From NCBI RefSeq assembly GCF_003390325.1, contig NZ_QUOK01000008.1, positions 1 to 64,000 of the forward strand: a stretch of 64,000 nt of DNA, in the 5' to 3' direction. This DNA comes from Rhodohalobacter sp. SW132 (GTDB lineage Bacteria; Bacteroidota; Rhodothermia; Balneolales; Balneolaceae). Below, one piece after another: positions 27,840 to 45,500 of the stretch. A program made the position numbers and the translations under genes. How positions within the stretch are numbered: position 1 is the first letter of the stretch; each line of letters starts with the position of its first letter. Under the pieces are notes generated by a model. The model made no database searches. It was not told the origin of the DNA and worked only from the letters and a program-made list of their open reading frames with translations.

Positions 27840-28697
27840 ATGAAACGATTTACACTGCCGTCCCTCCTGCTTGCTTTTGCCCTGGTTATCACCTCTTGCC
27901 TCGATACAAGCGGACCCAATGACGATTATGACAACACTGCTGACCTGCAATTTTTAGAAGATAATGCGCAAAGAGATGATGTTACCGTAACCGAAAGCGG
28001 CCTGCAGTACCGGGTTGTTGAAGATTCTGTCGGAATAAGCCCCACGGAAGAAACCACAATTATCATCGATTTTGTCGGCTCATTTGTTGATGGAAGTGAA
28101 TTTAATAACACCTATGAAGCGGGACAGCCCGCTATTGCACGGGTCGAAAATCTGATTTCCGGTCTCAGGGAAGGTGTTCAGCTAATGACGATCGGTTCCA
28201 TTTACGAATTTGTACTGCCATCTGAGCTTGCCCTCGATTCAAATGGTAATCCACTGCAGGGAATTCCGCGTGGCGCCGCATTGATTTATGAAATTGAACT
28301 CATTCATGACAGCGCCTATGATTCGATTTTCCTTGAAGAAAACGCCCTTGAAGAAGATGTTGTAGTGACCGATAGCGGCCTTCAATACAAAATCATTGAA
28401 GAGGGAGATGGTGATTCGCCGGGTGCCACATCTACCGTACAGGTAAATTATACCGGCACGTTTATTTTCGGTGAAATATTTGACCAATCTCCCGAATCCA
28501 TGCCGTCAGAATTTCCTCTTAACGATGTAATTGAAGGCTTTTCAGAAGGTATTCAGCTGATGAATGAAGGAGCAACATTTGAGTTTTATATTCCTGCCGA
28601 ACTCGCATATGGAGATAATCCCAACCCGCAAAGCCCGATTTATCCCGGCGCCACACTGATTTTTGAAGTAGAATTAGTGTCCATTAGCAATCCATAA
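27840..28697 (+). CDS. lipoprotein with two tandem FKBP-type peptidyl-prolyl isomerase domains
   Basis: A 285-aa lipoprotein. The signal peptide ends in VITSC with the lipidated Cys at residue 20, so the protein is envelope-anchored. Two FKBP_C repeats follow (about 45-157 and 175-284). Each starts with a V(T/V)(E/D)SGLQY motif and contains the FxDGSEF or FGEIFDQS strand, an EGVQLM or EGIQLM turn and a final aromatic-containing strand (YEIELI, FEVELV). Each repeat is preceded by an E-rich linker. Proline isomerase activity and a folding role for exported proteins are inferred. The first domain seems less conserved than the second. Confidence 0.9.
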   Translation: MKRFTLPSLLLAFALVITSCLDTSGPNDDYDNTADLQFLEDNAQRDDVTVTESGLQYRVVEDSVGISPTEETTIIIDFVGSFVDGSEFNNTYEAGQPAIARVENLISGLREGVQLMTIGSIYEFVLPSELALDSNGNPLQGIPRGAALIYEIELIHDSAYDSIFLEENALEEDVVVTDSGLQYKIIEEGDGDSPGATSTVQVNYTGTFIFGEIFDQSPESMPSEFPLNDVIEGFSEGIQLMNEGATFEFYIPAELAYGDNPNPQSPIYPGATLIFEVELVSISNP

Positions 28698-30237: not shown

Positions 30238-31074
30238 TTACTCCCCACCTTCATCAGCATCGTCATTGAATGTGTTGAGTTCTATCTCTCCAATCTCATT
30301 GGTTTCTCCTACGGTCACGCTAACTTCATCAAGTGCAGCCGGTTCAAACCCTTCTTCTCTTGGCTCAACAGAAACCGTATAGCTGCCTGACTCCAAACCC
30401 ACGAGTGTAAACTCACCGGAGGAAGTATCCGCAAAGGTAGTAGACAGCGTGTCCGATTCCTGTATGGCATATACCGTCGCCCGGGTATCAATCGGCAAAA
30501 TAGTTCCGGAAATGTTACCTGTTATTGCTTCGTTTGTTGCTCTAATTACAGGTTTAAGGTTGTACAGATCCTGTACGCCTTTTTTTACAACCGATCGATT
30601 GGCGTCAAAATCAAGAAGCAGCGTGTATTGGATTCCTTCCAGAATTTCCGCGTTGATATTAAGTTTCACGCCTGTCTGTTCACCACTGGGCACAAACAGT
30701 TCGAACGTTTCGCCATTAATGACTACCGTATTCGCGTCATTCAAAATCAAGCGAATCTGCTCGTATGTGCCTACTTCCAGTTCAGCATCCGCAAGAACGG
30801 CCATTTCCCCGTTCACCAGATCCAGGATATTATAGATCTCGTTCGGCTCGCTGATCACAATCCAGCCATCTTCGTTTTGAGTATTGTTCACTTCAACTCG
30901 TGCCACGGATATGTTTACTTCATCGTAGTCAACCGGTGCGTCATGGAGTTTCACAACCATGGATCCCGTTCCGCTACCTGATTCTGTGTTAAGAGTGGAT
31001 TCACAACCCCAGAAAAGCAGGGCTGATGTTATTACTAAATATGTGAGCGTTTTTAATTGTTTTTGAATACTCAT
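30238..31074 (-). CDS. DUF4382-domain lipoprotein with C-terminal carboxypeptidase-regulatory-like domain
   Basis: A 278-aa lipoprotein; the lipobox is ALLFWGC with Cys near residue 24. A DUF4382 domain (about 35-180) carries GSMVVKLHDAPVDYDEVNISVARVEV and NDANTVVINGETFELFVPSGEQTG, then a beta-sandwich of the carboxypeptidase regulatory/CNA-B type (about 190-270, GNISGTILPIDTRATVYA...GSYTVSVEP) and an acidic tail. DUF4382 proteins are common exported proteins of unknown function. The promoter-like element upstream matches that of the ECF sigma gene 4 kb away, suggesting control by that sigma factor. Confidence 0.82.
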   Translation of the reverse strand: MSIQKQLKTLTYLVITSALLFWGCESTLNTESGSGTGSMVVKLHDAPVDYDEVNISVARVEVNNTQNEDGWIVISEPNEIYNILDLVNGEMAVLADAELEVGTYEQIRLILNDANTVVINGETFELFVPSGEQTGVKLNINAEILEGIQYTLLLDFDANRSVVKKGVQDLYNLKPVIRATNEAITGNISGTILPIDTRATVYAIQESDTLSTTFADTSSGEFTLVGLESGSYTVSVEPREEGFEPAALDEVSVTVGETNEIGEIELNTFNDDADEGGE

Positions 31075-31123: not shown

Positions 31124-31153
31124 ATATGACGACCAGGTTCCGGATCGGTTACA
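31124..31153 (-). promoter_or_regulatory. predicted ECF-sigma promoter of the DUF4382 gene
   Basis: Read on the minus strand: TGTAAC (31148-31153), 16 bases, then CGTCATAT (31124-31131), about 50 bases before the ATG of the DUF4382 lipoprotein. The GTAAC -35 and CGTC -10 boxes with a 16-base spacer are typical of many ECF promoters. The same boxes and spacer precede the ECF sigma gene. Confidence 0.65.
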
Positions 31154-31491: not shown

Positions 31492-32412
31492 CTAATTCCC
31501 TTGGTTTCCAGGCCCCTGGCCAGGTCTGCCGCCTGGTGGGTTCCCGGGTCGCCCCGGAATGTTCGATGGTGGTCCCGCATTCACATTCCCGTTGAACAAA
31601 TTTTGTAAAATCTGGCTGGCAGGAATTCCGTTTCCTATCTGGTTTGATAAGCCATCAAGTACGGAGGCTGCCGGAAGCTGGCTTCGCCTCTCAGCGGCAT
31701 TCACCGCACCCGGTAACCGCTGAATTTCATTCGCTGAAAACCCTCCGCGTACTGCATTTGCAATCACCGCCTGAACACCTGCCTCATTCAGCATCGACGC
31801 CGGCAGATCAGGCAAAATCCCCACTGCTGCTGCTATCGCCCGGGGAGATGAGTTTTCGAGCACAGCAGGCTGCCCCAGCTCGTTCAGCACCATTTCAATA
31901 GTTTCTGAAGGCACCTTCTGTGTAAGTGACTTCAGATTCGCATTAACCAACTCCCGGCGAAACTGCTCCTGCCCCCCACCTAAACCCTGCATATACGGTG
32001 CAACTTCCGGCTTTTCCATCCAGCGGTTTGATAATGCAACTGCCTGTGGAGTCTCCCTTTGGATCACATCTAATACGGGAATCATTCGTCCGCCCGGAAC
32101 TCCTTTAGCAAACCCTTCCATCATCTTTTGGATGATAAAATCCGTTGGCATTCCCTTTTCTGCAAGGTCTGCCGCGGGCTCAATCATACGTGCAACGATT
32201 GAATCGTCGACACCCCGTGAGGCAGCACGTTCTCTTATCAATTCGATTCTGTTCTGCTCAATTCCCGCAGCTACTGCCCTGTCCGATACCTGCTGAAGAT
32301 CGCTTTGTTGCGATACTGCAGACAGAGGTGTAAACAGGATCAAAACAAGAATTATGCTAAGAAACAGTGCCGGTGTGGTAAGTGTGTGTATAGTTTTCAT
32401 ATCTGTCCTCAT
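31492..32412 (-). CDS. secreted helical protein with Gly/Pro-rich tail, last gene of the ECF operon
   Basis: 306 aa with a signal peptide (about 15-33, LFLSIILVLILFTPLSAVS). The mature part is almost wholly helical, with recurring units such as RAVAAGIEQNRIELIRERAASRGVDDS, AADLAEKGMPTDFIIQKMMEGF and ANAVRGGFSANEIQRLPGAV, and it ends in a Pro/Gly/Asn-rich tail (PGRPGNPPGGRPGQGPGN). No known family is recognised. A start at the second ATG (four codons in) is equally likely. It starts 8 bases after the CBM48-type outer-membrane gene, so it is the fourth gene of the sigma/anti-sigma operon. Confidence 0.72.
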   Translation of the reverse strand: MRTDMKTIHTLTTPALFLSIILVLILFTPLSAVSQQSDLQQVSDRAVAAGIEQNRIELIRERAASRGVDDSIVARMIEPAADLAEKGMPTDFIIQKMMEGFAKGVPGGRMIPVLDVIQRETPQAVALSNRWMEKPEVAPYMQGLGGGQEQFRRELVNANLKSLTQKVPSETIEMVLNELGQPAVLENSSPRAIAAAVGILPDLPASMLNEAGVQAVIANAVRGGFSANEIQRLPGAVNAAERRSQLPAASVLDGLSNQIGNGIPASQILQNLFNGNVNAGPPSNIPGRPGNPPGGRPGQGPGNQGN

Positions 32413-32420
32413 TGTTTCAA

Positions 32421-33674
32421 CTAATCTAAAAATATCAATCCGTTTGTACCGCCAAATCCATCACTCACGGTCATTGTTTCGTCGGTGAATTCAACCCATG
32501 TCTCTTCGCCGTTTGCTATCAGAAGTACTTTATACTCGTAAATTCCCGGGTTCAGATTCAGTTCTGCGGCATACTTTCTGCCGCTGACTTTTGATAAGGG
32601 AACACCAGGCTGCTCCCAGTCATTAAATTCACCGGTAATGTAGAGATCCCCGTCGCCCCTGTACTCTATAGATACCATAACGGCACTGTTTCTAAGCTGG
32701 TCCCATTCAGGCGAAACATTGTTCCCGGAATTTCTGAACATCGATGACGCAGAAAATGTGTATCTCAACCCAACAGATGCCTCCACATCCGACCGGGATT
32801 CTCCGCCTCCGGGAAGAAAAAGATTCAATCCGGCAGAACCCCTTCCGGAAAAATTCCCCGCAACCGGAAATGTAAAATTCAGGCTGCCGCGTAAAAGCCG
32901 GTCGATCTGATCAAATGATTCCTCTTCCTCGGGCCGAGTCGGTCCAAACTGTGGCCCGCCGCCATCTGGAGTTATGGTAAAACGATTGGTGTATCGATTT
33001 GCAGAAACCGAAAGTGCGATACCTGCCGACTGCCCAATAACCCTGCTTAAAGAGGCGGATATGCTGTGATTCTCAAACAAGTTCTTATCTGCCAGCCCGT
33101 ACACTCCGCCGCGAAGCTGCCATCTGAATGACGGCCAGTGCTCCATTTCAACGCCGTAGAAATCAAACCTGTCAGTCGTTTCAATTTCTCCGGTGTCGTC
33201 TAATAACTCATACGTTCTGAAGGATGAACCGGCCCGGGCGCGAACCCTGGTAAAGAGCGACGGCGACCATTCGATTTCTGGCATGAATGAGAGAGTCTGT
33301 TTTCCAAATTCTGATTGCAACCGGCTGCCACTTGCCCCGGCTCCGGCTGAAACGGTTTCACTCAACCGATATCGAAATTGAGCAGATCCGAATCCGCCGT
33401 TCCAGTTATTTCGTTCATCATAAATATTCTCTAAAACATAACCGCCGGACAGATCGGCCGAAAATCTTCCCGTGGCCCAGAATATTTGTGCTGAAGGAAT
33501 CAGACGGGTAAATGCACCGCTGTCAGATATGTCCCATTCGTTTATCATCGGGTGCAAAAATGTGTTTGTGGAATATCCGGCTTGCGATTCAACCGTAATC
33601 GATGTTCCCGGTGTTTGCGAAAACAGTGTTCCGGTACAGAGAAAACTGATCATAAGTAATCCGACTTTTTTCAT
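32421..33674 (-). CDS. outer-membrane barrel protein with C-terminal CBM48/AMPK-type glycogen-binding-like domain
   Basis: A 417-aa exported protein. A signal peptide (LLMISFLCTGTLFSQ) is followed by about 310 residues of alternating beta-strand sequence typical of an outer-membrane barrel (FSADLSGGYVLENIYDER, RYRLSETVSAGAGASGSRL). The last 75 residues form an E-set/AMPK-beta glycogen-binding-like domain: ITGEFNDWE, a central NPGIYEYKVLL and DGFGGTNGLIFL. The same domain closes the anti-sigma protein next to it. The ATG overlaps the anti-sigma stop as ATGA. A barrel ending in a carbohydrate-binding-like domain on its periplasmic or surface end is unusual. The ligand is unknown. Confidence 0.8.
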   Translation of the reverse strand: MKKVGLLMISFLCTGTLFSQTPGTSITVESQAGYSTNTFLHPMINEWDISDSGAFTRLIPSAQIFWATGRFSADLSGGYVLENIYDERNNWNGGFGSAQFRYRLSETVSAGAGASGSRLQSEFGKQTLSFMPEIEWSPSLFTRVRARAGSSFRTYELLDDTGEIETTDRFDFYGVEMEHWPSFRWQLRGGVYGLADKNLFENHSISASLSRVIGQSAGIALSVSANRYTNRFTITPDGGGPQFGPTRPEEEESFDQIDRLLRGSLNFTFPVAGNFSGRGSAGLNLFLPGGGESRSDVEASVGLRYTFSASSMFRNSGNNVSPEWDQLRNSAVMVSIEYRGDGDLYITGEFNDWEQPGVPLSKVSGRKYAAELNLNPGIYEYKVLLIANGEETWVEFTDETMTVSDGFGGTNGLIFLD

Positions 33675-34390
33675 AAATAGATCACGGCATTTTTATTCCC
33701 AAACCCGTCATCCCGCTGAATTTCAGCGAGTGGATCTGCGAGCCATTCCTCTCCGTTTTTCACAAACATATAGTGATGTTCTCCACGCTCAACAGGAACC
33801 AGTCCGGTCCAGACCGTTTTATCACCCATTACCCGGCTGTCCAGTTCAATGGGTTCCCAATCGCTAAAATTGCCGGCTACAGCCATCTCGGAGGCATCAT
33901 CATCGATGTAAACAAACCGAATCCAAACTTCGTCTGTTACGTGGTCCACCACAAATTCTGTCTCTGTACCGAACTCATTGAGTGAAGTCTCGTCAGCGGA
34001 AGGCATCAGAAACAAGGCAGCAGTCAGCATCAAAAGAAGAGCAGGCGTAGCCATAACCATAGCCGGGCGAAACGTGTACTCTTTTGGTGTGAACCATTGT
34101 TTCATCCATTCAAAAAATGGTTCGTACCAAACCGGCTGCCGGGCAGTTTCGTGCTCCATTTGTTCAATTTGATGCATCACATCATTTGTGAAACCTTCCG
34201 GAACATCAAACATTTCCAGGTCGGGGACTTCGTGCAAAGAATCTGACAAAAATCGATCAAACCGAAGCATTGCCCGGAGTTCCTCGTCCTCAGCTATCCG
34301 GATCAGCGCATTCTTCTCCTCTTCAGGTGATAATTCACCATCCAGAAACCGGGAAACCAGCTGTTCATCTTTATGTCTGTTCTTGCTCAT
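33671..34390 (-). CDS. transmembrane anti-sigma-like protein with C-terminal CBM48/AMPK-type domain
   Basis: 239 aa. The N-terminal cytoplasmic region (about 1-110) resembles anti-sigma domains in length and in the LVSRFLDGELSPEEE helix, but the zinc-binding H-x3-C-x2-C site is absent. One TM helix follows (about 113-133, MVMATPALLLMLTAALFLM). The outer part ends in a glycogen-binding-like domain: VAGNFSDWEPIELD, VERGEHHYMFVKNGEEW and DDGFGNKNAVIYL. The start overlaps the ECF sigma stop as ATGA, the standard arrangement for a sigma/anti-sigma pair. The predicted topology puts the CBM48-like domain outside the inner membrane as a possible sensor. Confidence 0.82.
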   Translation of the reverse strand: MSKNRHKDEQLVSRFLDGELSPEEEKNALIRIAEDEELRAMLRFDRFLSDSLHEVPDLEMFDVPEGFTNDVMHQIEQMEHETARQPVWYEPFFEWMKQWFTPKEYTFRPAMVMATPALLLMLTAALFLMPSADETSLNEFGTETEFVVDHVTDEVWIRFVYIDDDASEMAVAGNFSDWEPIELDSRVMGDKTVWTGLVPVERGEHHYMFVKNGEEWLADPLAEIQRDDGFGNKNAVIYL

Positions 34391-34953
34391 AACTGTTCAC
34401 CTTGCTTAAGTAATTGCTTTAGTTCAGCCCTGGCCCGATGCACCCTAACTTTCAGTGCTGATTCCGATATCTCCATCTGTTCAGATATCGCCTTAAAACT
34501 CATTCCGTCACGGTACCGCATCAGCAGAGGTTCCGACTGCCCCGGCCCGAGTTTTCGGATCGCGCTGTACAATAAACGGCTGGATTCGTCCTGTTCCATC
34601 GTCTCGTCAGGTTGTAAATCCACACTTTTCCGGTTCTCTATGAACGACTCTTCAAGCTCACTGAACCGGCTGTTTTTTCGGCGGATATTCTTCGTATAAT
34701 CACGGCAGTGGTTGTGTGCAATCGAATAGATCCACGTTGAAAATTTTGCCCGGTTTCCAAAAGTATTCAGCTTTGAATATGCTTTCACAAAAATCTCCTG
34801 TACAAGTCCTTTCACCTCTTCTTCATTTTTTTCGAATGAACGAACAAGGTGAAAAATCATCGGAGAATAGCGGTCAACCAGGTGCCTGTATAACTCCCGG
34901 TCTCCTTTTGCTATTCTCTGGATTATTTCCGTTTCAGTTGGTAATTCTTTCAT
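34387..34953 (-). CDS. ECF-family RNA polymerase sigma factor
   Basis: A 188-aa sigma-70 family factor with region 2 (VRSFEKNEEEVKGLVQEIFVKAYSKL and WIYSIAHNHCRDY) and region 4 (LLMRYRDGMSFKAISEQMEISESALKVRVHRARAEL) but no regions 1 or 3, as in ECF factors. It heads a four-gene operon: sigma, anti-sigma with CBM48, barrel with CBM48, helical exported protein. A promoter-like TGTAAC-N16-CGTCATAT element lies about 55 bases upstream, suggesting autoregulation. Confidence 0.95.
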   Translation of the reverse strand: MKELPTETEIIQRIAKGDRELYRHLVDRYSPMIFHLVRSFEKNEEEVKGLVQEIFVKAYSKLNTFGNRAKFSTWIYSIAHNHCRDYTKNIRRKNSRFSELEESFIENRKSVDLQPDETMEQDESSRLLYSAIRKLGPGQSEPLLMRYRDGMSFKAISEQMEISESALKVRVHRARAELKQLLKQGEQL

Positions 34954-35007: not shown

Positions 35008-35037
35008 ATATGACGACTCAAATATTGATTCGTTACA
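35008..35037 (-). promoter_or_regulatory. predicted ECF-sigma promoter of the sigma/anti-sigma operon
   Basis: Read on the minus strand: TGTAAC (35032-35037), 16 bases, CGTCATAT (35008-35015). The distance from the -10 box to the sigma ATG is 55 bases. This is the same boxes and spacer length seen before the DUF4382 gene, and the usual architecture for autoregulated ECF factors. Confidence 0.7.
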
Positions 35038-39750: not shown

Positions 39751-40908
39751 ATGAGTTTAAAATCTGTTATTGGTTCTTTGGATAACCTCCAGGATCAACT
39801 CGCTCAATTCAGAGAGATTCTGCTGGCCAATCTTGTTATGATCGGCGAAATTCCCTCTCCCACCACTGGTGAAGAGGATCGCATAGAATTCCTTCTCAAT
39901 CGATTTAATGAAGCTGGGCTCCCTGAAAGCTCCATAGATGAATGCGGAAACGGCATTGGGGTACTGAACGGCACGGAGGGTGAAAAGTCGATTTTAATTA
40001 ATGCTCACGCCGACACGGTGTTTTCGTCTAAAACCGATCACACCATGCAGGTTACATCCGATAGTATTACAGGGCCCGGCGTTGCGGACAACAGTCTCGG
40101 GCTCGCTGTTCTGGCTACTCTTCCCTATATCCTTGAGGAGCTGGATATCAAACTTAAAAACAACCTGATTCTTTTTGGAGGCACTAAAAGCCTCGGCCGT
40201 GGCGACCTTGAGGGAATCCGGTTTTTCCTTGATAACAACGACTTCAACATTAAAAATGCACTTTGTATTGAAGGTGTGGAGCTCGGCAGGCTCAGTTACA
40301 CCTCTATCGGGATGTTGCGGGGTGAAATCACCTGTAAAGTGCCTGAAACGTACGATTGGTCACGGTTCGGGGACGCCAGCGCCATTCTTACATTGAATGA
40401 AGTGATCAACAAATTAAATGACATGCGCCTGCCTAAACGCCCGCGCACAAGCGTGGTGATGGGTTCCATTTCCGGCGGCTCATCATTCAATACCATCGCC
40501 AAAGAAGCTACACTTGGATTCGAATTGCGATCTGAATCGGAAGAAGTGGTGGAAGATGTCGGGAAAACTATCCAGGATATTGCCATGGAAGTAGCCTCGA
40601 AAACCGGTGATGAAGTAGAGCTCGATATCTTTGCCCGGCGGCGGCCCGGTGGAATTCCATACGCACATCCGCTGAATGAATGCGCACGATCCGTAATGAA
40701 AAATCTGGAAATTGAACCCCGCCTTGCCCCAAGCACATCAGAACTGGCCGCCCTTATTGATAAAGGAATTCCGGCACTCACGCTTGGCATCACATCGGGT
40801 GACAGAATTCACAAAATGAATGAATCTGTCAAAATTGAACCGATCTATAAAGGGCTGGCTCAACTCATTGGAATATTAATCGCTACAGATGGAGGATTCT
40901 GTGAATAA
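39751..40908 (+). CDS. M20-family peptidase-like protein lacking the catalytic Glu pair
   Basis: A 385-aa protein with the M20/PepT fold. The first metal His motif is AHADTV with H86, the second metal Asp is in GPGVADNSLG, and the final His is in GDRIHKMNE. The position of the catalytic base and bridging Glu (EE before GLG in active enzymes) instead reads K146-S147 in FGGTKSLGRGDLEG. Catalysis of the normal kind is therefore unlikely. It overlaps the gpgS gene, so it probably acts with glucosylglycerate synthesis, perhaps as a regulator or a changed hydrolase. Function unknown. Confidence 0.82.
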   Translation: MSLKSVIGSLDNLQDQLAQFREILLANLVMIGEIPSPTTGEEDRIEFLLNRFNEAGLPESSIDECGNGIGVLNGTEGEKSILINAHADTVFSSKTDHTMQVTSDSITGPGVADNSLGLAVLATLPYILEELDIKLKNNLILFGGTKSLGRGDLEGIRFFLDNNDFNIKNALCIEGVELGRLSYTSIGMLRGEITCKVPETYDWSRFGDASAILTLNEVINKLNDMRLPKRPRTSVVMGSISGGSSFNTIAKEATLGFELRSESEEVVEDVGKTIQDIAMEVASKTGDEVELDIFARRRPGGIPYAHPLNECARSVMKNLEIEPRLAPSTSELAALIDKGIPALTLGITSGDRIHKMNESVKIEPIYKGLAQLIGILIATDGGFCE

Positions 40909-41875
40909 TCTGCAACAGTGGATCGACCAAAATACCTACCACCATTCTCAATTCTGGGACATTAAGAAACTTGTTGAAGCAAAAGAGAAACACGGTCTCA
41001 CGATTTCGCTTTGCCTTCCCACACTGAACGAAGAAAAAACAATCGGTAAAGAAGTTATCCTGTTTAAGTCTGAACTGGTTAATCGCTATCCCCTGATTGA
41101 TGAAATTGCTGTAATCGACTCAGGATCGGATGACAACACACTTGAAGTTGCAAAAACGTACGGCGCTGACACTTATCTCTCGTCTGAAATTCTCCCCAAC
41201 CTGGAACCAAAAATGGGGAAAGGCGAAAATCTCTGGAAAGCAATTCATCAGCTGAAAGGAGATATCATTGTCTATGTGGATGCGGATATCAGCAACATAC
41301 ACCCCCGGTTCGTTTATGGGCTGGTTGCCCCGCTGATTTATCGTGAGGAAGTAAAGTATGTGAAGGCGTTTTACGATCGTCCTCTCGCCGTCTCTGGCGG
41401 TGTGAGAAATTCAGGCGGAGGTCGCGTCACCGAAATATTGGTCAGGCCTCTGTTTTCTCTGTTTTTTCCCGAACTCACCGCTATTATTCAGCCGCTTTCA
41501 GGCGAATATGCCGTACGCCGCGAAGTGCTGGAGCGAATTGCGTTTCCAATCGGATACGGTGTTGAAACCTCGCACCTGATTGATGTTCATCACAAGTTTG
41601 GGCTGGAAGCATTCGCCCAGACAGATCTCGACAAACGGGTGCACGAAAATAAACCCACCATCTCACTGGGTAAAATGTCGTTCGGAATTCTTCAAACGTT
41701 TCTCAAACGGGCACAGGCGCTCGGTAAATTTGAGAACGTGGATCACGAAACCATTTTGAGGCAATTCCAGGTTACAAAAAGCCAATATCAGCAGAATGAA
41801 ATTTCAATTATTGAAGAGGAACGCCCTCCGATGATTGAGATTGAAGAGTATCGCAAAAAATTCGGCCGTTCGTAA
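40901..41875 (+). CDS. gpgS: glucosyl-3-phosphoglycerate synthase (GT81)
   Basis: A retaining glycosyltransferase that joins glucose from NDP-glucose to 3-phosphoglycerate, first step of glucosylglycerate synthesis. Signatures: LCLPTLNEEKTIGKE, VIDSGSDDNT, the metal motif VDADIS (D127/D129), and QPLSGEYAVRREVLE followed by FPIGYGVETSHLID. I start at GTG 40901, which has GGAGG 5 bases upstream; an in-frame ATG 12 bases earlier is the alternative. It overlaps the M20-like gene. A HAD protein and a glucosylglycerate-phosphorylase-like gene follow. Confidence 0.92.
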   Translation: MNNLQQWIDQNTYHHSQFWDIKKLVEAKEKHGLTISLCLPTLNEEKTIGKEVILFKSELVNRYPLIDEIAVIDSGSDDNTLEVAKTYGADTYLSSEILPNLEPKMGKGENLWKAIHQLKGDIIVYVDADISNIHPRFVYGLVAPLIYREEVKYVKAFYDRPLAVSGGVRNSGGGRVTEILVRPLFSLFFPELTAIIQPLSGEYAVRREVLERIAFPIGYGVETSHLIDVHHKFGLEAFAQTDLDKRVHENKPTISLGKMSFGILQTFLKRAQALGKFENVDHETILRQFQVTKSQYQQNEISIIEEERPPMIEIEEYRKKFGRS

Positions 41876-41918
41876 AGTTGTGTTATTAATATAGTGACGG
41901 ATTTATTGGATGAAAATC

Positions 41919-42042
41919 TTCACCGGATGAATTCGCTTCATCCGGTGAATTCTCTGAGCTCTACATTATCCCTCACATAACCTGATAAAATAACCCATTA
42001 AGTCCTATCCACTCATCCGATGGCGTGAAGTCAGCGGATGAG
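41919..42042. repeat. two CATCCG-type hairpins downstream of gpgS
   Basis: First, a perfect 13-base stem TTCACCGGATGAA/TTCATCCGGTGAA with loop TTCGC at 41919-41949; no T-run follows. Second, CTCATCCG/CGGATGAG arms at 42012-42042. A longer version of the same ACTCATCCGATGAC arm occurs at 48158-48233, so the motif is repeated in the window. Confidence 0.65.
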
Positions 42043-42086
42043 GGTATTTCTTTAACTCGGCAAATCAGAATTGACTTGGCATTATC

Positions 42087-42986
42087 ATGAAACAGAAAAC
42101 ATTGCTTGCTGAACGATTTAAAGAGCTTTCAAACCCGCTTCAACCTGAACCCACCGGAGAGCAGCCGCAACTCACTAAACTTACAGGGATAAAGGCCGTA
42201 ATTTTCGATTTTTACGGTACACTATTTATTTCCGGAGTAGGGGATATTGGAATCGATGATGGAAACTCCGACTCCCAGCTGCTTCTCGATGCTCTTGATG
42301 GTGCAGATATTGAAGTATCTGATCCTAAAGCGGGAAAACGTGGATATGAGATCTATAACAAGGTCGTCACAGATGAGATCCAGGAGATCAAGGCGAGTGG
42401 AATTCCATACCCTGAGCCCGATATCCGGAAAGTCTGGAGAAATGTATTGAACCAGATGTACGCCGAAGGACTGATTCGCTCTTCTACATCATCGGATGAT
42501 CACGAGCGAATGGCCGTGGAGTTTGAAGTTCGAATGAACCCGGTCTGGCCGATGGAGGATCTCCATGAAACACTTGAAATACTCCGCAACAAAGAGATGA
42601 TCCTGGGCATCATTTCTAATTCTCAATTTTATACGCCCATCGCATTCGAAGCACTTGCAGGCCATAATCTCACATCGCTCGGGTTTGATCAGGATCTCCT
42701 TCACTGGTCATTTGAAGAGTCGAGAAAAAAACCGGGACTTCAGTTCTATGAGAATTTCATGGAGAAAGCATCAAAAAAATACCCGGCCCTGCAGCCTGAA
42801 AATTATCTTTATGTTGGTAATGATATGCTGAAAGATGTGTACCCGGCCCATGAAATGGGTATGAAAACCGCTCTGTTTGCCGGAGACAACCGATCTCTGA
42901 AATGGAGAAAAGACGATTCACGTACTAAAAATCTAAAACCGGATATCGTCATAACTACTCTGAGCCAGATCGCCGAATGCATCTGA
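42087..42986 (+). CDS. HAD-superfamily hydrolase, possible glucosyl-3-phosphoglycerate phosphatase
   Basis: A 299-aa HAD protein. Motif I is VIFDFYGTLF with the nucleophile D41; motif II is IISNSQ; motif III/IV are KKPGLQFYE and VGNDMLKDV. Motif I has Tyr43 where phosphatases have the second Asp (general acid/base), a pattern found in haloacid-dehalogenase-like members and in some HAD hydrolases. Its location between gpgS and a GH13_18 phosphorylase suggests it removes the phosphate to form glucosylglycerate, but the altered motif makes this uncertain. Its stop faces the phosphorylase stop with 13 bases between. Confidence 0.8.
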   Translation: MKQKTLLAERFKELSNPLQPEPTGEQPQLTKLTGIKAVIFDFYGTLFISGVGDIGIDDGNSDSQLLLDALDGADIEVSDPKAGKRGYEIYNKVVTDEIQEIKASGIPYPEPDIRKVWRNVLNQMYAEGLIRSSTSSDDHERMAVEFEVRMNPVWPMEDLHETLEILRNKEMILGIISNSQFYTPIAFEALAGHNLTSLGFDQDLLHWSFEESRKKPGLQFYENFMEKASKKYPALQPENYLYVGNDMLKDVYPAHEMGMKTALFAGDNRSLKWRKDDSRTKNLKPDIVITTLSQIAECI

Positions 42987-42999
42987 TCGTTTAGCGATT

Positions 43000-44751
43000 T
43001 CAGATCATAATCCAGGCCACCTGGTAAGATTTTAGTGTCAGAGTTCCCTCTGAGATACACACCTTCTCACTGAGTATATCGTCGTAATTTTTATTCTTTT
43101 CGAAGGGAAACTGATCTCCGGTAATATCTAAGATCTTTTCTTCGTCTGTAAGATTCGCAGCTACAAAAACCCGTTCCATGCCTTCAGGATCGACCCGTTC
43201 AATGCAAAACAGGTCCGGATCTGCATCAAAAACTTTCTGTTTTCCAAACGGATGAAACGCCGGGTGTTGATTTCTTTTCTCCAGAATCTCCTTGTACCTG
43301 TTAAAAATACGATAGGTATTGGTGTCCGGATCGTTTAACGCATCAACAAGTTCGTTATATCCCCATTTCTTACGATTAATGGTTCGGTACCGCCCGGTTA
43401 TGGAAACGCCTCGCATGTTGTTTCGGGTAGCCGTCAGATTGTGGAAGTAGATACCGGGAACACCCTGTAAACTCAACATAATGATCTGAGAGCAGATATA
43501 ACGCCGTTCCTGTATACTTTGAGATCCGTTATAGTCTGAAAATGCATCAAAATAGGTGATATTTAACTCGTAGGGGCTTAAACTTCCATCGGGATTCTGC
43601 TTTTCCGATACAAACCCGCCTCTGCCTCTCATACCCTCTACGAGGGCTGCAAACTCCTCATCCGGCACCAGCCCTTCAAGCGGCCGTACTCCAATGCCGT
43701 CATGCGATGATGTAAAATTGAAATAGGTACAGTTTTCGGGAAGCGTATGTAGTGATTCTGCCCACCTCGTGAGGTACGACGCATTCTCCGTGAGAATAGC
43801 GTGTAAAAGCAGCGGCGGCAGACTGAACTGATAAACCATATGAGCTTCATCACCATCACCAAAGTAGCTGATATTCTCTTTATGCGGCACATTGGTCTCG
43901 GTAATCAGTGTTGTCTCCGGTGCATAATGATCTACAATCGTTCGCATCAGTTTCACAATTTCATGCGTTTCCGGCAGATGTATGCAAGATGTGCCAATCT
44001 CTTTCCATATAAATGCTACAGCATCCAGCCGAATCACCGACAAACCTTCTTTAAGGTAGAACAGGAAAATATCGATGAATCGGAAAAGGAGATCAGGGTT
44101 TGCAAAATTCACATCAATTTGGTCATCACTGAAGGTTGTCCAGACAAACTTCTCACCTTTATCGGTGTGAACCGGCGTGAGCAAAGGTGAACTCCTCGGC
44201 CGCGTCACTTCACTCAGATCCAGAGAGGGATCCACTTCAATAAAATAATCGGTATACGGTTCTTTATTTCTCAGATATTTCTTAAACCAGCTGCTGTGGC
44301 GGGATGCATGATTCATCACCAGGTCGCCCATCAACCTGAAATCTTTGCTCATTTCTTCTATATCATCCCAGCCGCCCACACGGGTATCTACCCGCTTATA
44401 ATCCACAACCGAAAAGCCGTCATCGGATGAGCTCGGGTAAAAGGGTAGAATATGTACCGATGAAATAAATCCCTTCAGATGCTCATTCAGAAATTCGTGC
44501 TGTTTATGGAGTTTTGACACAGGCTCACCTTCATCCGGCTGAACCATATCACCATACGTAATCAGTATCTGATCCTGATGAGACCATACATTTTTAAACG
44601 AAAAATCACCTTCTGCCGGACTCATATCGTACTCATCCAACAGTTTGTGTGTCTGTTGAAGACAATACTCCACTTTTTCGTCGCCGTAGATGAAGGAGTA
44701 ATGTTTTTGTAATTGTTTTTTAAAAGAGTCTGTAAATCGGGGGTAGCTCAT
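43000..44751 (-). CDS. GH13_18 glycoside phosphorylase, probable glucosylglycerate phosphorylase
   Basis: A 583-aa (beta/alpha)8 enzyme of GH13 subfamily 18, which holds sucrose phosphorylase and glucosylglycerate phosphorylase. The nucleophile is D243 (GLSVIRLDAVAFIWKE), the acid/base E285 (LITETNVPH) and the third Asp D351 (SSHDGIGVRPLEG). HILPFYPSSSDDGFSVVDY and LMGDLVMNHASRHSSWF are family motifs. It is longer than sucrose phosphorylases (about 500 aa), as glucosylglycerate phosphorylases are. Proximity to gpgS supports that substrate over sucrose. The start was set at the ATG; a TTG lies 8 codons upstream. It would release glucose-1-phosphate and glycerate. Confidence 0.85.
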   Translation of the reverse strand: MSYPRFTDSFKKQLQKHYSFIYGDEKVEYCLQQTHKLLDEYDMSPAEGDFSFKNVWSHQDQILITYGDMVQPDEGEPVSKLHKQHEFLNEHLKGFISSVHILPFYPSSSDDGFSVVDYKRVDTRVGGWDDIEEMSKDFRLMGDLVMNHASRHSSWFKKYLRNKEPYTDYFIEVDPSLDLSEVTRPRSSPLLTPVHTDKGEKFVWTTFSDDQIDVNFANPDLLFRFIDIFLFYLKEGLSVIRLDAVAFIWKEIGTSCIHLPETHEIVKLMRTIVDHYAPETTLITETNVPHKENISYFGDGDEAHMVYQFSLPPLLLHAILTENASYLTRWAESLHTLPENCTYFNFTSSHDGIGVRPLEGLVPDEEFAALVEGMRGRGGFVSEKQNPDGSLSPYELNITYFDAFSDYNGSQSIQERRYICSQIIMLSLQGVPGIYFHNLTATRNNMRGVSITGRYRTINRKKWGYNELVDALNDPDTNTYRIFNRYKEILEKRNQHPAFHPFGKQKVFDADPDLFCIERVDPEGMERVFVAANLTDEEKILDITGDQFPFEKNKNYDDILSEKVCISEGTLTLKSYQVAWIMI

Positions 44752-45500
44752 AAAGTAAAACCGGTATGGGTTCAATAAAAAATACGCGTTTGGCAGTAAT
44801 TGATGAATAAGCGTTCATGGAAAATACAATTCACAAAGTCAGATATTCGTGATTCAAACTCATTCATTATTCCCAAAAATGCCTGAACCATAACAGATTC
44901 AGATACAATAACTGCTAAACGCGTTAAATAATTTACTAACAAACAATCTTTTTCTGTTAAAGTAAAGGGTGAATCCCGCGGCTGTCTAAATTATTATTCA
45001 GGCCGAATAAAACATTCATAATCCAATTATAGGACCAGACCAGTTCGCATTGTCAAAATCACTCCCAGCTCTTGGTCCCATAACTTTTTGATCGATATGA
45101 AGTTTATTCTGGAGTGTTCCACCTCCGAGAGACTGTGATAAAATACCTTGTCAAAAAATTGGTGTATTTATGTTTTTAACCGCAAGGGGCGCAAGCAGCC
45201 GCAGAGGTTATTTATTCGTATTCTTTGCGCACTTCGCGCAACCTTGGCGGTATATTTTTAGGTTATTATAAATTATTTTCTCACACCCTCACGAAGGGAC
45301 AATGGGATTAATCAGGGCGACTCTGGGTGAAATGAACTGCCCCGGGGCAGAAGTACAATGAATCGAATTTTCCGTAGTGAACTTATTAGCCTGGATCGTT
45401 GTGAGCACATCTATATTCACGAATCTGACAAAACGTCATTTCGTTTTATGGTTAGATCACATTCTTTCTTATTTTTCAGGGTATAAAAAATAAATTATTT
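44752..45500. other. 750-base gene-free interval with a REP-like palindrome
   Basis: No coding frame is supported. The first 430 bases are AT-rich and must contain the phosphorylase promoter. A REP-like inverted repeat lies at 45178-45252 (listed separately). The right end carries AAAACGTCATTTCGTTTT (near 45427, 6-base arms), a possible operator in front of the sigma-54 activator gene. No sigma-54 -24/-12 promoter was recognised. Confidence 0.5.
45178..45252. repeat. REP-like imperfect inverted repeat
   Basis: AACCGCAAGGGGCGCAAGC on the left and TTGCGCACTTCGCGCAACCTTGGCGGT on the right are imperfect inverted copies around an AT-rich centre. The TTTGCGC/CGCGCAA words also occur near 39484-39610. 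This looks like the dispersed rRNA-like repeat seen in many genomes of this group; I cannot show more copies from this window alone. Confidence 0.5.

Follow-up and report, generated by a model that had tools for sequence, protein, structure and literature searches.

A 64,000-nucleotide stretch of the genome of Rhodohalobacter sp. SW132 (contig NZ_QUOK01000008.1, positions 1 to 64,000; hereafter the window) carries a five-gene module built around an extracytoplasmic function (ECF) sigma factor and its anti-sigma factor, in which both the anti-sigma factor and the adjacent outer-membrane barrel protein end in a domain related to carbohydrate-binding module (CBM) family 48, CBM48. The module is real, ancient within its class and clearly selected as a unit. 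We read it as a self-contained, auto-amplified envelope ECF sigma module that senses a glycan-type signal through its CBM48 domains, an interpretation to which we give about an even chance of being correct. The features concerned are:

35009-35037, minus strand: ECF-type promoter of the sigma operon, TGTAAC-N15-TCGTCATA (exact motif).
34387-34953, minus strand: ECF sigma factor, 188 amino acids (TIGR02937, Sigma70_r2, Sigma70_r4_2).
33671-34390, minus strand: anti-sigma factor, 239 amino acids (profiles, homologues, hydropathy).
33674-33925, minus strand: CBM48-like domain of the anti-sigma factor, residues 156-239 (conservation, AMPK-beta alignment).
32421-33674, minus strand: outer-membrane barrel protein, 417 amino acids (AlphaFold2, structural matches, Pfam matches of homologues).
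32424-32675, minus strand: CBM48-like domain of the barrel protein, residues 334-417 (conserved residues aligned to AMPK-beta).
31492-32412, minus strand: exported all-helical repeat protein, here called gene 4, 306 amino acids (AlphaFold2, locus conservation).
31125-31153, minus strand: second ECF-type promoter, TGTAAC-N15-TCGTCATA, 5' of the DUF4382 gene (exact motif).
30238-31074, minus strand: DUF4382 lipoprotein, 278 amino acids, the fifth conserved member (DUF4382 profile, homologues).

A preliminary description of this DNA had proposed four tightly packed minus-strand genes encoding an ECF sigma factor, an anti-sigma factor with one transmembrane (TM) segment, an outer-membrane barrel and an exported helical protein. 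The gene identities and coordinates were borne out, as was the spacing: ATGA overlaps join sigma to anti-sigma and anti-sigma to barrel, and 8 bases separate the barrel gene from gene 4. The four genes were there, but the extent of the system had been underestimated, as the DUF4382 lipoprotein gene and a conserved pair of promoters were overlooked.

Full-length anti-sigma factors bearing the CBM were found in about a fifth of the genomes of the class (~55 of 245) and in none of the genomes sampled outside it, the 21 positives among 394 genomes of the phylum all belonging to this same class. About 46 independent loci were fetched from five families of the class (L115, L116 and L152 repeat L063, L064 and L062), and the order sigma, anti-sigma, barrel, gene 4 was kept in every one long enough to show it, so the four-gene arrangement, on whose conservation in relatives the preliminary description depended, stands. 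Both CBM48 domains co-occur in all 47 barrel/anti-sigma loci, across the five families. The DUF4382 gene lies downstream of the four-gene set; in the two more distant families (f5 and f9), however, its usual place is ahead of sigma, in the same orientation. Genes flanking the module differ between genera, which argues that the module is maintained by selection and not by local gene order. The carriers are salt-loving Balneolaceae-type bacteria, and no plasmid-borne copies of the module were found.

The sigma factor contains regions 2 and 4 only, without regions 1 and 3, as expected of an ECF sigma factor (TIGR02937, 7.1e-31; Sigma70_r2, 3.5e-15, residues 25-90; Sigma70_r4_2, 3.2e-14, residues 126-178). 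Its partner comprises a putative cytoplasmic anti-sigma domain (residues ~1-80), a TM segment (~109-132) and a periplasmic CBM48/AMPK1_CBM domain (~156-239); hydropathy peaks at residue 111, a strong TM window is present in 47 of the 48 homologues, and the two genes are separated by -20 to +12 base pairs (bp) in 47 of 48 loci. Matches of the N-terminus to known anti-sigma domains are weak, i.e., the family profile aligned with residues 9-78 of RsiW at E 0.0056, the anti-sigma family NF052375 was matched weakly at 0.061, and RseA_N was matched at 0.0082 in one homologue. The zinc motif HxxxCxxC occurs in none of the 48 anti-sigma factors, 45 of which have no Cys at all, which places them outside the zinc-dependent anti-sigma (ZAS) type. 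The CBM is the best-kept region of the protein, with a mean column conservation of 0.72; the anti-sigma domain reaches 0.52 and the linker and TM segment 0.32.

The preliminary description had taken both C-termini to be CBM48-like, and profile searches agree: the Pfam family AMPK1_CBM (PF16561) was matched by each of the 11 anti-sigma and 12 barrel homologues scanned (best 1.2e-9 and 3.8e-8, respectively). The window's own domains matched at 2.1e-5 (anti-sigma, 25.1 bits) and 6.9e-6 (barrel, 26.6 bits), scores which singly fall just below the Pfam gathering cut-off of 26.8. Among solved structures, the anti-sigma family profile matched a pullulanase CBM (1.3e-7) and AMPK-beta (2e-6), and the barrel family profile matched AMPK-beta (5e-5). 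When aligned with one another by HHalign the two CBM families gave an E-value of 2.6e-16, i.e., the domains are homologous.

Of the four ligand-contacting residues of the AMPK-beta domain, three are kept in both families. In AMPK-beta1, W100, K126, W133 and N150 contact beta-cyclodextrin, and mutating them disrupts glycogen binding (PMC4032982). Anti-sigma residues W178, W216, F230 and N234, which align with AMPK-beta W100, W133, L146 and N150, are invariant in all 48 sequences, as are barrel residues W353, W393 and N411 (aligned with W100, W133 and N150) in all 47 barrels, while barrel K382, at the position of K126, is K or R in 47 of 47. Among 54 further CBM48 domains taken from the phylum, 18 lack the second binding Trp. 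Since the equivalents of W100, W133 and N150 are invariant in both domains, an alpha-glucan-like ligand is suggested.

CBM48 domains are common in the phylum, both as small standalone proteins and in glycoside hydrolase family 13 (GH13) enzymes. A maximum-likelihood tree, built on few columns and hence rough, grouped the anti-sigma CBMs with the small standalone proteins (98/89 support) and apart from the barrel CBMs, which formed a branch of their own. Duplication within the operon was considered and rejected as the simplest reading, and because the tree sets the two domains on separate CBM48 branches they look separately recruited. The pairing proposed in the preliminary description therefore holds for the shared fold and the invariant Trp and Asn contacts, but not for an origin as duplicates. 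An example of the standalone type is a 117-amino-acid protein in locus L078 (7747-8097; G000:C13:125872-126084), and such small proteins are widespread in the class. Locus L079 (4890-7253) encodes a 787-amino-acid GH13-like lipoprotein with an internal CBM48 domain; long CBM48 proteins of this kind abound in the phylum, often with a CBM that has no second binding Trp.

The barrel protein was modelled with AlphaFold2 from 47 aligned barrels (mean predicted local distance difference test score, pLDDT, 86) and consists of a signal peptide, a 14-strand barrel (residues 23-308) and a C-terminal beta-sandwich CBM (~323-417). Its best PDB match was CymA (Z 20.9, 3.4 A over 256 residues), a cyclodextrin channel (PMC8049027); Z was 18.9 with OmpG and ~15 with FadL. 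The modelled barrel is of the OmpG/CymA-type 14-strand porin fold, an assignment made at fold level only. STN domains, plugs and TonB-dependent receptors were not matched in any of the 12 barrels scanned. An even-stranded outer-membrane barrel has both of its ends in the periplasm, so the CBM of the modelled barrel should occupy the same compartment as that of the anti-sigma factor.

The two exact copies of TGTAAC-N15-TCGTCATA in the window lie ~84 bp upstream of the sigma start codon and ~79 bp upstream of the DUF4382 gene, and within the 5.08 Mb genome the core TGTAAC-N15-TCGTC has just two further matches, neither of them upstream of a gene, making four in all. Across the fetched loci (888 kb), GTAAC-N16-CGTC was found 86 times at this exact spacer as opposed to 1-4 times at any other. 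Its position is upstream of sigma in 36 of 48 loci, of the DUF4382 gene in 34 of 39 and of gene 4 in a few, and it was never found before the anti-sigma or barrel genes (0 of 48). Loci without the sigma promoter mostly carry the site upstream of a DUF4382 gene that itself precedes sigma. This placement leads us to infer that both the sigma operon itself and the DUF4382 lipoprotein genes are switched on by sigma, and the predicted self-activation fits ECF autoregulation. A wider regulon in the window's own genome was considered and rejected: matches allowing two mismatches (31) were not above those in a reversed control (25), and the other exact matches had no gene downstream.

Promoter copies were also seen away from the module. 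An unlinked DUF4382 lipoprotein gene in locus L108 (1501-2405; G151:C12) has the same ECF promoter 67 bp upstream and is a predicted regulon member outside the cluster. In Fodinibius roseus, a copy lies directly 5' of a gene for a lipoprotein with weak similarity to MbnP (2.7e-4; L111, 1501-2444; G199:C30). In one genome of the same order, the gene for a T2SSE/MshEN secretion ATPase has a copy 67 bp upstream (L106, 1501-3026; G104:C6), a single case which could be due to chance.

Gene 4 encodes an exported all-helical repeat protein with a Gly/Pro-rich tail (AlphaFold2 pLDDT 88.8) and lies downstream of the barrel gene in every locus long enough to include it. The window protein had no Pfam match and its homologues no consistent one; Foldseek returned no PDB match at E <= 0.001 for the model, and VIA-align only designed helical repeats at Z 9, a level that is uninformative for helical proteins. 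The DUF4382 protein matched its family at 4.3e-33, carries a C-terminal CarboxypepD_reg-like domain, and all 12 homologues scanned match; its lipobox Cys24 is invariant in 39 sequences. On the evidence of its promoter, this lipoprotein is a predicted output of the regulon. Several loci hold extra copies of gene 4 and/or the DUF4382 gene after the module (L129, reverse-strand 1-2300; L069, 6009-7906; L133, L146 and L150), often with their own copy of the ECF promoter, which suggests that the two genes are outputs of the regulon that undergo expansion.

Starting from the architecture and the promoter, both of which are computed, we infer a mechanism in which the ligand, the proteolysis and any contact between the CBMs are the conjectural steps. 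At rest, as in other membrane-bound systems, the anti-sigma factor would keep sigma at the inner membrane. Judging from their conserved residues, the CBM48 domains would have a glycan as ligand, with an alpha-glucan-like oligo- or polysaccharide the most likely candidate. The barrel may admit, capture, deliver or report this glycan, and in that way barrel and anti-sigma factor would respond to one common ligand, or else to each other, from opposite sides of the periplasm. A change in the anti-sigma CBM48 domain would then expose the protein to regulated intramembrane proteolysis, which acts on other membrane-bound anti-sigma factors (PMC8999054). The freed sigma factor would transcribe its own operon and the DUF4382 gene or genes, and the output would be a surface or periplasmic lipoprotein and a helical exported protein, not a sugar-degradation pathway.

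Several observations weigh against glycan sensing. The K126 equivalent of the anti-sigma factor is Met or Gln in all but one of the 48 sequences (Ile once), and because this position is replaced the anti-sigma CBM48, judged by its alignment, may not bind glycan. Other CBM48 and E-set domains act as protein-binding or structural parts, and the fold match of the barrel says little about substrate. The module contains no glycoside hydrolase, sugar transporter or SusCD, and a nutrient role is disfavoured because the predicted regulon lacks any sugar enzyme or transporter. In the window's own genome, the promoter marks only the sigma operon and the DUF4382 unit.

The chief rival to glycan sensing is direct contact between the CBMs, i.e., a protein-protein relay in which the barrel CBM48 binds the anti-sigma CBM48, as STN does in PupB/PupR, with the glycan-site residues kept for the interface or for folding. 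That the domains are homologous (HHalign 2.6e-16), share a compartment and are encoded by genes adjacent in every relative would suit such a relay; however, both carry the invariant aromatic platform typical of glycan sites and they are not sister branches in the tree, and we regard it as rather unlikely. A little less likely again is an envelope-stress sensor without a glycan, in which the anti-sigma CBM48 is an E-set shield against proteolysis while the barrel and helical protein repair or replace parts of the envelope. This would account for a regulon made up only of envelope proteins, for the extra promoter-bearing copies of gene 4 and DUF4382 in some genomes (L069, L129 and others) and for the promoter itself, since TGTAAC...CGTC is a SigX/SigM-like type that we take to be common among envelope-stress ECF sigma factors, but a mere shield needs neither the strongly kept carbohydrate-contact positions nor a CBM that is the most conserved part of the protein (0.72 vs 0.52). 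Finally, that two unrelated E-set domains are neighbours by coincidence in a co-inherited cluster, with no mutual role, is very improbable, since both persist with invariant ligand residues in all 47 loci over five families, even if the commonness of CBM48 in the phylum (standalone proteins and GH13 enzymes) and the separate tree branches are what coincidence would give.

The module has partial parallels in known systems. The preliminary description held that anti-sigma factors normally carry unrelated periplasmic sensors, which overlooks two precedents: the anti-sigma factor PupR and its outer-membrane partner PupB have the STN fold in common (PMC7186176), and the RsgI proteins of Clostridium thermocellum are membrane anti-sigma factors with a C-terminal extracellular CBM (CBM3, CBM42 and others; PMC12203970). 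As in TonB-dependent cell-surface signalling (CSS; PupB/PupR/PupI and FecA/FecR/FecI), an ECF sigma factor, a one-TM anti-sigma factor and a barrel are encoded together, and as in PupR/PupB the latter two bear homologous periplasmic domains, CBM48 here and STN there. Unlike in CSS, the barrel is porin-like with 14 strands, lacks plug and TonB features and carries the domain at its C-terminus, and the predicted regulon comprises an exported helical protein and DUF4382 lipoproteins rather than an uptake system. With SigI/RsgI the module shares a membrane anti-sigma factor whose C-terminal carbohydrate-binding module lies outside the membrane; that system is Gram-positive, of the SigI family, with a cellulosome regulon and no barrel partner, whereas here the sigma factor is of the ECF type, the CBM48 is periplasmic and a partner barrel carries a second one.

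Pfam matches of the 11 anti-sigma factors included no RsgI family and the sigma factor is not SigI-type, nor was an STN or FecR domain found among the matches of these proteins and the 12 barrels. Because STN domain, TonB-dependent barrel and RsgI domain were not found, the module is a variant of ECF/anti-sigma cell-surface signalling and not a member of the CSS or RsgI families. The anti-sigma factor resembles the class I proteins RsiW and RseA in its single TM segment and co-transcription with an ECF sigma factor, and perhaps in its N-terminal anti-sigma domain (weak match), but CBM48 replaces their periplasmic domains and HxxxCxxC is lacking. The barrel has the 14-strand fold of the monomeric porins OmpG and CymA and differs from them in sequence (~6-12% identity), in its C-terminal periplasmic CBM48 and in its operonic link to a sigma/anti-sigma pair. 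Both CBM48 domains share fold and the W100, W133 and N150 contact positions with the AMPK-beta glycogen-binding domain and bacterial CBM48, from which they differ in being periplasmic, in their attachment to an anti-sigma factor and a porin, and in the replacement of K126 in the anti-sigma copy.

Searches of open-access papers yielded no description of a system that combines CBM48 on an ECF anti-sigma factor and on a porin-like barrel, a conserved promoter and a DUF4382 output, and the preliminary description likewise knew of no described system of this layout. The module might even represent an undescribed class of cross-envelope signalling, in which matching CBM48 domains let porin and anti-sigma factor each detect one and the same glycan. 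Such a system would be the glycan-based equivalent of the FecA/FecR relay, which relies on STN, and would have both a promoter code of its own and a dedicated output, DUF4382; we advance this tentatively and think it unlikely in so complete a form.

Two neighbouring stretches of the window were also annotated. Positions 39751-44775 encode an M20-type peptidase, a glucosyl-3-phosphoglycerate synthase (1.6e-117), a HAD hydrolase and a sucrose-phosphorylase-like GH13 protein, and are probably a glucosylglycerate compatible-solute cluster that lies near the module in part of the Balneolaceae. A functional link between the two was considered and rejected. Homologues lie beside the module in some Balneolaceae, but the stretch contains miaB and a sigma-54 regulator as well, and because none of these genes flanks the module in other families the neighbourhood is read as shared local gene order. 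The protein encoded at 27840-28697 is a lipoprotein containing two FKBP-type domains; its score for BamJ, a family of the barrel-assembly machinery, exceeds the NCBIfam cut-off (134 vs 100 bits).

What an ECF system detects is determined by its anti-sigma sensor, and to our knowledge most ECF groups have no identified signal. Here a sensor fold, invariant ligand positions, a barrel partner, a promoter and a likely regulon come together in one conserved block, which makes ligand and wiring directly testable. The module also provides a first functional context for DUF4382, which only one of the open-access papers searched mentions by name, and one for a family of exported helical-repeat proteins that has no Pfam entry.

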